Part shown: positions 15,157 to 17,199 of the stretch, in pieces
How the letters are laid out: the number at the start of each line of letters is the position of its first letter
Numbering within the stretch: position 1 is the first letter of the stretch
The notes under the pieces: generated by a model
The model's input: the letters and a program-made list of their open reading frames with translations, nothing else
Databases searched by the model: none
Told to the model about the DNA's origin: nothing
Assembly: GCA_013202525.1 (NCBI GenBank)
Contig: JABMQS010000007.1
Span: forward strand, 1-32,338
Length of the DNA stretch: 32,338 bases
From: Candidatus Omnitrophota bacterium
GTDB lineage: Bacteria > Omnitrophota > Gorgyraeia > JABMRG01
Direction of reading: 5' to 3'
Program-made: the position numbers and the translations under genes

Positions 15157-15876
15157 TTACTGGTTTTCTTGGTGATTACTAAGATAGTCTCGGATTTTTT
15201 TCATGTCCTCCCACACGTGTCTCTTCTCACTCGGGTTGCGCAGGAGATACGCGGGGTGGAATGTCGGCATAAGTTTTGTGCCTTCAAAGTCGTAGAATCT
15301 TCCTCTCAACCTCGATATCGATTCTTCTGACATAAGCAGTGTCTGCGCTGAAAACTTACCCAGGCAGCATATCACCTTTGGCCTGATAATATCTACCTGC
15401 TGTCTCAGAAATTCCCTGCAGGCTATGACCTCTGAAGGAAGCGGATCGCGGTTCTTCGGCGGGCGGCACTTAAGGCAGTTTGCGATATATACATCCTCCC
15501 GCTTCAAGCCGATCGCCTCTATTATCTTCGTAAGCAATGCGCCTGCCTTCCCGACAAAGGGCTCACCCTTTATATCCTCTTCAAGCCCGGGCGCCTCACC
15601 TACAAACATCAGCCTTGCCCCGGGATCGCCTGAACCAAAGACAAGATTTCTGCGTGACTTGCAAAGCGGACACTCCCTGCACTCCTGGGCCTGCGTCCTT
15701 AGCTCATCCAGCACAGTCTTTCTATCACGGGCCACGCCCCCGGTATCGAGGCCTGATGCTTGTTTAGGCTTGGTTACACCCTTTAGCATAAACTCATCAA
15801 GTCCTGACTCTTTCTCGAGCTCAATAAAATTTTTTATGTCTCTTATGATTCGATTTAGTCGCGACTTATCCATCAT
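15157..15876 (-). CDS. Uracil-DNA glycosylase, family 4 (iron-sulfur type)
   Basis: DNA repair enzyme that removes uracil from DNA. The family 4 motifs are visible: MFVGEAPGLEED (90-101), GEPFVGKAGALL (104-115) and the HPAYLL motif (207-212). The expected 4Fe-4S ligands are present as C66 and C69 (CRECPLC), C137 in LKCRPPKNRDP, and C153. An N-terminal extension of about 55 residues precedes the catalytic domain, which is frequent in this family. The gene starts 5 bp from the end of the 155-bp inverted-repeat element and has no clear ribosome-binding site, so its leader is made of repeat sequence. It leads the UDG-priA-fmt-GH57 group. Confidence 0.95.
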   Translation of the reverse strand: MMDKSRLNRIIRDIKNFIELEKESGLDEFMLKGVTKPKQASGLDTGGVARDRKTVLDELRTQAQECRECPLCKSRRNLVFGSGDPGARLMFVGEAPGLEEDIKGEPFVGKAGALLTKIIEAIGLKREDVYIANCLKCRPPKNRDPLPSEVIACREFLRQQVDIIRPKVICCLGKFSAQTLLMSEESISRLRGRFYDFEGTKLMPTFHPAYLLRNPSEKRHVWEDMKKIRDYLSNHQENQ

Positions 15877-15881
15877 ATCTT

Positions 15882-16036
15882 AGGGTTTGCTGGTTAATCT
15901 CCGCAGGAACGCAAAATTTTCCCCACCGAGGAAAATTTTGCTCCGTTTTCTTTCTCGCTCTCGCCAAAAAGCTGTACAGGGCGAACCATGGCCGCTCGAA
16001 ACAAAAAGGTCCTGCTTCGATTAACCAGCAAACCCT
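15882..16036. mobile_element. 155-bp MITE-like element with long terminal inverted repeats
   Basis: The ends form a perfect 18-bp inverted repeat, AGGGTTTGCTGGTTAATC (15882-15899) and its complement (16019-16036); matching continues to 27 bp with three mismatches (GCAGGA shared at the inner end). Inside is a second perfect hairpin, GCAAAATTTTCC (15911-15922) and GGAAAATTTTGC (15930-15941), with a 7-base loop. No transposase is encoded, and no clear target-site duplication is visible. It fills most of the 180-bp gap between the polysaccharide block and the UDG-priA block. I read it as a non-autonomous mobile repeat. It may also insulate the two operons by folding in RNA. Confidence 0.75.
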
Positions 16037-16056: not shown

Positions 16057-17199
16057 TCACTCTGTGTCCTCTTGCGTTAGCAGCCGGAGAGCGAGGCGGG
16101 CAATATCGTCCGCGGCAGACGGCCTTGCAACAGACCGCATCCTCTCCTTGACTCTCTTAAGTTCTTCGGGCGAATTATGAAAGCGGCTTATCAGGGATAT
16201 CAGCTCATCGACATCCTTTACCTTGAAACCTATTCCTTTCTCGCCGAGAAAGTCCGCATTTCGCATCTCCTGGCCAGGCATTGGCTTTAGTGTAAGGACG
16301 GGCAGTTCCTTTATCATGGCCTCAGTTACTGTTATGCCGCCGGACTTGCTTACCATAAGGTCGCTCGCTGCCATGATCTCGTCCACATTAACACAGAAGC
16401 CCAGTATGTGCACCGTCTTTGTAAAGTCCTTTCTCATCTGCCTCATCTTCTTTACCAGGGCCACATTGTGGCCGCAAACAACTATCATCTGGCAGTCGAA
16501 ATCGAGCCCCTGCAGCATCGATACTATATTCTCTATCGGCCCAACGCCAAAACCTCCACCCATGACAAGTATGGTAAACCTATCCTCTTCTAATTTAAGT
16601 TTCAGGCGTGCCTGCTCCTTTGAGATGGGTTTATTGAACCTGCTGCGAACAGGCATACCCAGGACCTTTATCTTCTCCTGGGGAATACCCCTTGCTATCA
16701 ACATCTCCTTGGTCGCCTCGGCGCCAACGGTGTAATAGTCAACATTCTTGAACTCCCAGAAACGGTGTGATTTAAAATCTGTTATTATGTTGATAATAGG
16801 TACTGATAGAAGGCCTTTCTGCTTCATGCGGCAGATGACCTCTTCTGCCAAAAAATGTGTGGATATTACAAGGTCGAAGTCCTCCTTATGCAGGAACTCT
16901 ACGAGCCTCTTTGTACTCAATGCGTTGTTTAGCCTGCGAAAGGGCCTGCAGACAGCATAGACGAATCTATTATCAAGTATATAATAGACGAAACCCCATA
17001 CAAGGGGGAGATACTTTATCAGGAACATATAACCTACCTTATAGCTGTATTTGAAGAAGCGGCTCGTATAATTAAGCGAGTCTATAAGGACGGGATCTAT
17101 ATCGTCCCTGCTTAAGTTCTGCAGTGCGGTATAGACGGCCTCTGCGGCCTTCTTGTGGCCGTCACCTGCTGATGCATATATCACGAGGATCTTTTTCAT
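16057..17199 (-). CDS. MGDG-synthase-like glycosyltransferase (GT28, diacylglycerol glucosyltransferase type)
   Basis: Probably a membrane-associated glycosyltransferase that adds a hexose to a lipid or isoprenoid acceptor. The 380-residue protein begins MKKILVIYASAGDGHKKAAE, the MGDG_synth N-terminal signature with the GDGHxxAA acceptor loop. A C-terminal GT28-type domain has VMGGGFGVGPIEN and, near the end, SKSGGITVTEA plus LKPMPGQE, which are the nucleotide-sugar binding elements of MurG, UgtP and plant MGDG synthases. It is the last gene of the polysaccharide block and overlaps the homocysteine methyltransferase gene by 4 bp. Lipid glycosylation is the family role; the actual acceptor is unknown. 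Confidence 0.88.
   Translation of the reverse strand: MKKILVIYASAGDGHKKAAEAVYTALQNLSRDDIDPVLIDSLNYTSRFFKYSYKVGYMFLIKYLPLVWGFVYYILDNRFVYAVCRPFRRLNNALSTKRLVEFLHKEDFDLVISTHFLAEEVICRMKQKGLLSVPIINIITDFKSHRFWEFKNVDYYTVGAEATKEMLIARGIPQEKIKVLGMPVRSRFNKPISKEQARLKLKLEEDRFTILVMGGGFGVGPIENIVSMLQGLDFDCQMIVVCGHNVALVKKMRQMRKDFTKTVHILGFCVNVDEIMAASDLMVSKSGGITVTEAMIKELPVLTLKPMPGQEMRNADFLGEKGIGFKVKDVDELISLISRFHNSPEELKRVKERMRSVARPSAADDIARLALRLLTQEDTE

Follow-up and report, generated by a model that had tools for sequence, protein, structure and literature searches.

A dispersed palindromic repeat with a predicted Y-shaped fold in Omnitrophota and other bacterial phyla

The window analysed here, 32,338 nucleotides long, is one whole contig of the 1.64-Mb draft genome of a Candidatus Omnitrophota bacterium. 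We propose, with a probability of roughly 0.6, that positions 15882-16036 of this window represent one member of an ancient family of palindromic repeats that is dispersed and non-autonomous, spreads as DNA and is moved in trans by an enzyme that reads its fold. The family is previously unlisted: the element had no significant family match in Rfam, and the open-licence literature that we searched held no relevant account of palindromic or transposable repeats in Omnitrophota or candidate phyla, an earlier description elsewhere being possible.

The first-pass annotation had described this stretch as a nested palindrome, and repeat search bore this out in full. The terminal arms (15882-15908 and 16010-16036, 27 nt each) are 89% complementary (24 of 27), and their outer 18 bp form a perfect stem between AGGGTTTGCTGGTTAATC (15882-15899) and GATTAACCAGCAAACCCT (16019-16036); the 5' arm is unlike those of sister copies, yet it complements its own 3' arm. 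Read on the + strand, the outer stem is followed by an internal loop, TCC (15900-15902) opposite TTC (16016-16018), which is pyrimidine-rich on this strand and GGA/GAA on the other, and then by a six-pair inner stem, GCAGGA (15903-15908) with TCCTGC (16010-16015), in which all six pairs show two-sided changes across the family. Hairpin A (15911-15941) consists of GCAAAATTTTCC-CCACCGA-GGAAAATTTTGC and includes a perfect 12-bp stem (15911-15922 with 15930-15941). Hairpin B (15944-16009) has a variable basal stem, a conserved internal loop made of CTCGCTC (15954-15960) opposite CCATGGCCGCTC (15986-15997), and a variable apical hairpin C. The base at 15926 in the loop of hairpin A covaries with 15991 in hairpin B, the pair being C-G here and G-C in most copies. 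The folding energy is much lower than that of dinucleotide shuffles (z of -7.25, -8.14 and -8.04, covering both strands and folding as DNA), and none of 200 shuffles matched it. A covariance model trained on 24 diverse family copies, including this one, scores 148 bits on the window and matches exactly 15882-16036.

One fold is common to all copies, with the layout seen in the window: a long outer stem, an internal loop, a short inner stem and a junction bearing hairpins A and B. Comparison of the copies predicts that the element is Y-shaped, the outer and inner stems leading to a three-way junction at which the loop of hairpin A contacts the internal loop of hairpin B. Folding on both strands and a search for covariation, which the first-pass annotation had suggested, gave strong folds on either strand and changes on both sides at 37 of 44 pairs, the loop-to-internal-loop contact included, across the 24 diverse copies. 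In these copies 90.9% of the paired cells are indeed paired; shuffles reach 66% (0 of 500 as good) and slid registers 31-51%. The loop of hairpin A reads CCCCNSCGWGG in the family, and its S base covaries with the S of the hairpin B internal loop as G-C in 42, C-G in 8 and G-T in 2 of 52 copies; a larger set of 67 readable copies gave 56, 9 and 2. In hairpin B the internal loop CTCGCTC/CCRTGSCCGCTC is conserved, and the basal stem and hairpin C are free in sequence. The outer stem is likewise free, and in one genome it reaches a length of about 38 bp. At two pairs of orthologous sites (L080/L102 and L113/L114) the core has been kept, and other paired sequence has taken the place of the apical hairpin and of the distal part of the outer stem.

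Several variants of this architecture were also observed. Three loci on two contigs of the same genome (L194, L196 and L197; C109 and C76) carry a second type of head (beginning GAACTTAAAAGGTGTGGGGTATTTG) on the outer and inner stems of the studied element, as if heads had been swapped. Three others at contig ends of this genome (L012, L017 and L019) are longer, with an extra paired rod segment (beginning GACTCCATTGGCGAGAGCACCCTGTG) between inner stem and junction. In genome G119, the elements L285-L292 are nested in several layers of further concentric or adjacent palindromes, such as GATTTTTCGGC/GCCGAAAAATC and GGCGAAAATATC/GATATTTTCGCC.

The window copy is far from alone. Its own genome contains seven long matches (the window and six others at 77-83% identity) plus many partial ones, and at least eight copies according to the covariance model; several matches lie less than 100 bp from contig ends, which suggests that the assembly breaks at the repeat. 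With up to 15 candidates scored in each genome, the model detects the family in at least 85 of 193 sampled Omnitrophota genomes, and copy number differs widely, down to zero, within one genus. When the exact hairpin A core pattern AATTTTCCCCNNCGWGGAAAATT was searched across 84,980 species genomes, 45 loci were recovered, nearly all from Omnitrophota and the remainder from Aminicenantes, Portnoybacteria/Patescibacteria and Auribacterota, and most of the 45 have the full architecture. By the model, two Aminicenantes genomes carry 46 and 43 copies, one Auribacterota genome 30 and one further bacterium 32, and 93 relatives of a Portnoybacteria genome include 28 with matches. The region is thus not a single-copy stretch conserved as an ordinary leader. 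Since further copies exist in its own and related genomes, a dispersed, non-coding, non-autonomous element is the right class, as first annotated; the transposase, target-site duplication and clean empty site expected of a mobile element were not found. Coding capacity was considered and rejected. Open frames are near expectation on the + strand of family copies (63 versus 56) and above that of shuffles on the - strand (61 versus 43), but the latter excess was not taken as coding because copy lengths are not multiples of three.

Two observations support gain or loss of copies, as judged from comparison of related loci. In a Portnoybacteria genome (L101), a full copy lies in frame inside a GT4 glycosyltransferase gene whose orthologues are without it. 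The copy contributes roughly 40-50 residues to a variable linker, of which orthologues from other genomes have a shorter version. Downstream of xerC, three genomes of genus g34 differ: one (G119) has a copy, a second (G033) an apparent 5'-arm remnant and a third (G163) none. Neither the GT4 gene nor the xerC site yielded a target-site duplication or a precise empty site, the flanks having diverged too far for the ends to be placed. The orthologous GT4 gene of a different Patescibacteria genome (G073; L172, about 1615-1710) has another palindromic insert, with 13-bp arms GCGGGCGAGCCGC, in this variable linker. The closest known parallel in behaviour is the Rickettsia palindromic elements, which are about 150 bp long, palindromic and dispersed, and can lie in frame within genes (PMC10969869). 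The studied element, at about 155 bp, is likewise palindromic and dispersed, and it lies in frame within a gene in one convincing case (L101); compared by description, it differs in its phyla and in its architecture of conserved A and B heads on variable stems.

Copies are not placed at random with respect to genes. Two neighbouring genes were identified for 69 copies: 45 of these copies run in the direction of both genes and 12 against both, and 11 lie between divergent and 1 between convergent genes, a sense bias (45 versus 12) with p = 1.3e-5. ORF calling here relied on a simple script, and one genome may contribute several copies, so that single cases may be wrong and their independence is incomplete. 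A copy typically starts about 20 bp or less past the upstream stop codon. Script-called ORFs contain three of the 72 copies that were placed, clearly in one case (L101) and putatively in the other two. Two ideas about the insertion site were explored. Inverted target duplication, with the 3' arm copied from the end of the preceding gene, was rejected as a general rule (4.44 versus 4.32 when permuted; 86 of 500 permutations as high), and no T-run was seen by eye after the 3' arms when pre-existing terminator hairpins were considered as insertion sites. The window copy has the rarer orientation: it is antisense to both flanking genes, a 239-aa uracil-DNA glycosylase ORF (15157-15876, - strand), whose start is 5 bp away, and a 380-aa glycosyltransferase-like ORF (16057-17199, - strand), whose 3' end is 20 bp away. 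The earlier suggestion that the element supplies the leader of the glycosylase gene therefore holds by position, with the gene starting at 15876, but not as a trait of the family, and the position before this gene would be chance.

The sense bias and the nearness to upstream stop codons could reflect a role in mRNA, and they fit an alternative in which the element is a structured RNA of 3' UTRs or intercistronic regions, duplicated because it is useful, for example in 3'-end protection, processing or protein binding. Strong covariation of a multi-helix fold with a long-range, tertiary-like contact is also what structured noncoding RNA motifs in Rfam show, and on the - strand the conserved loops GCGAGC/GCGAGC and GNA/GNA could form sheared G.A pairs. 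Moreover, conservation of some copies between orthologous sites (L280/L294) roughly equals that of the neighbouring gene, which could mean a host function. The mismatches, however, tell a different story. An RNA strand under selection should favour G.U over A.C, yet among single mismatches flanked by Watson-Crick pairs we counted 16 G.T and 19 A.C, and 27 and 26 in a structure-blind alignment; 13 tRNAs from the same loci, used as a control, gave 11 and 0 (Fisher p 0.002). Only the model alignment (A3), which was fitted to the + strand fold, leans to G.T (86 versus 57 A.C). This parity suggests that pairing is kept as if by DNA, and it looks to be maintained through recognition of a cruciform or hairpin or through arm-to-arm copying or conversion among copies. 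An RNA role also sits poorly with the antisense orientation of the window copy and 11 others to both genes, with the wide copy-number differences, zero included, within one genus, with the copy inside coding sequence and with the lack of a significant Rfam match. We accordingly regard the structured RNA, which the first-pass annotation had offered as a separator of two operons, as rather improbable. Other mismatches on the + strand are strongly skewed (28 pyrimidine-pyrimidine versus 2 purine-purine), so that recognition of the element is likely to be strand-asymmetric; a purely symmetric cruciform does not need such asymmetry, and this, too, counts against the mobile-DNA reading.

If the family spreads as DNA, what moves it? 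All-against-all comparison of ORFs beside the 45 loci revealed no recurring neighbour gene, and no transposase linked to the element was found. Bacterial MITEs with stable folds, such as ERIC, NEMIS and Nezha, are small, intergenic, foldable and bounded by terminal inverted repeats. The studied element likewise is short (145-170 bp in the family), non-coding and multi-copy with terminal inverted repeats, and it could in principle be what is left of the termini of a classical DDE insertion sequence, the autonomous parent having been lost or never sampled. Unlike in ERIC, NEMIS and Nezha, however, its ends are not conserved and its stems co-vary across phyla. The terminal inverted repeats vary between copies and genomes and the interior is conserved, whereas a transposase that binds fixed ends needs the reverse, and a pattern search of its own genome found neither a parent nor, as the first-pass annotation had envisaged, a transposase with matching ends. 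An ordinary MITE is therefore a very remote prospect.

Movement by a RAYT (Y1, IS200/IS605-like) transposase, as for REP/REPIN repeats, has nearly as little to recommend it. REPs of the GTAG and CGTC families are extragenic hairpins that carry unpaired tags; they often follow closely on a coding region, are sometimes intragenic, and favour unidirectional and convergent gene pairs (PMC3733652). The studied element resembles them in placement and in the conserved unpaired tags of its hairpins, RAYTs are common in element-bearing genomes, and the copy within a gene has its counterpart among REPs. Yet REP units measure 20-40 bp, compared with about 155 bp and a three-way junction here, and convergent gene pairs are nearly avoided (1 of 69). 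Terminal GTAG or CGTC tags are absent; the outermost bases are not conserved, and CGTC is confined to the interior, where it stands at the junction. A copy lies within about 1.5 kb at only 1 of 31 RAYT loci in element-bearing genomes. Three copy-rich genomes have no Y1 match (G309 with 30 copies, G021 and G052 with at least 15 each), and three element-free congeners (G138, G161 and G163) carry Y1. RAYT linkage was thus rejected, as 30 of 31 loci are without a nearby copy and the presence of Y1 does not track that of the element. Two of the three RAYT genes in the element's own genome are instead bordered by palindromes of their own (beginning GGGGTCAGGCCCTGAGCACGA, and TCTGCGGGGTTGAAAAACCCCGCC; L125, 1240-1310 and 1880-1930; L126, 1335-1400 and 1885-1945), unlike the studied element.

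We therefore return to an element that, on the best reading of these comparisons, would be RPE- or REP-like in behaviour with an architecture of its own. The most likely mechanism would be a trans-acting nuclease or transposase that recognises the folded single strand or cruciform. Recognition may depend on the few conserved unpaired bases (CTCGCTC, CCRTGSCCGCTC and CCCCNSCGWGG), which would leave the letters of the stems free to drift while they remain complementary. Copies would insert, or persist, chiefly in sense orientation and immediately downstream of a stop codon. More tentatively, and with rather less than even odds, the family might represent a cross-phylum class of mobile DNA defined by its fold, in which the enzyme reads the three-way-junction cruciform and loop contact, arms and apical hairpins are replaced as the shape persists, and Omnitrophota, Patescibacteria, Aminicenantes and Auribacterota have been colonised with no dedicated transposase linked to the family.

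Equal tolerance of G.T and A.C offers a simple sequence test of whether a covarying, RNA-like repeat is kept as DNA. If our reading is correct, this family would rank with the more widespread families of interspersed repeats in uncultivated bacteria, would explain some of the contig breaks in these draft genomes, and would provide a defined substrate in the search for a new transposase that reads a fold.
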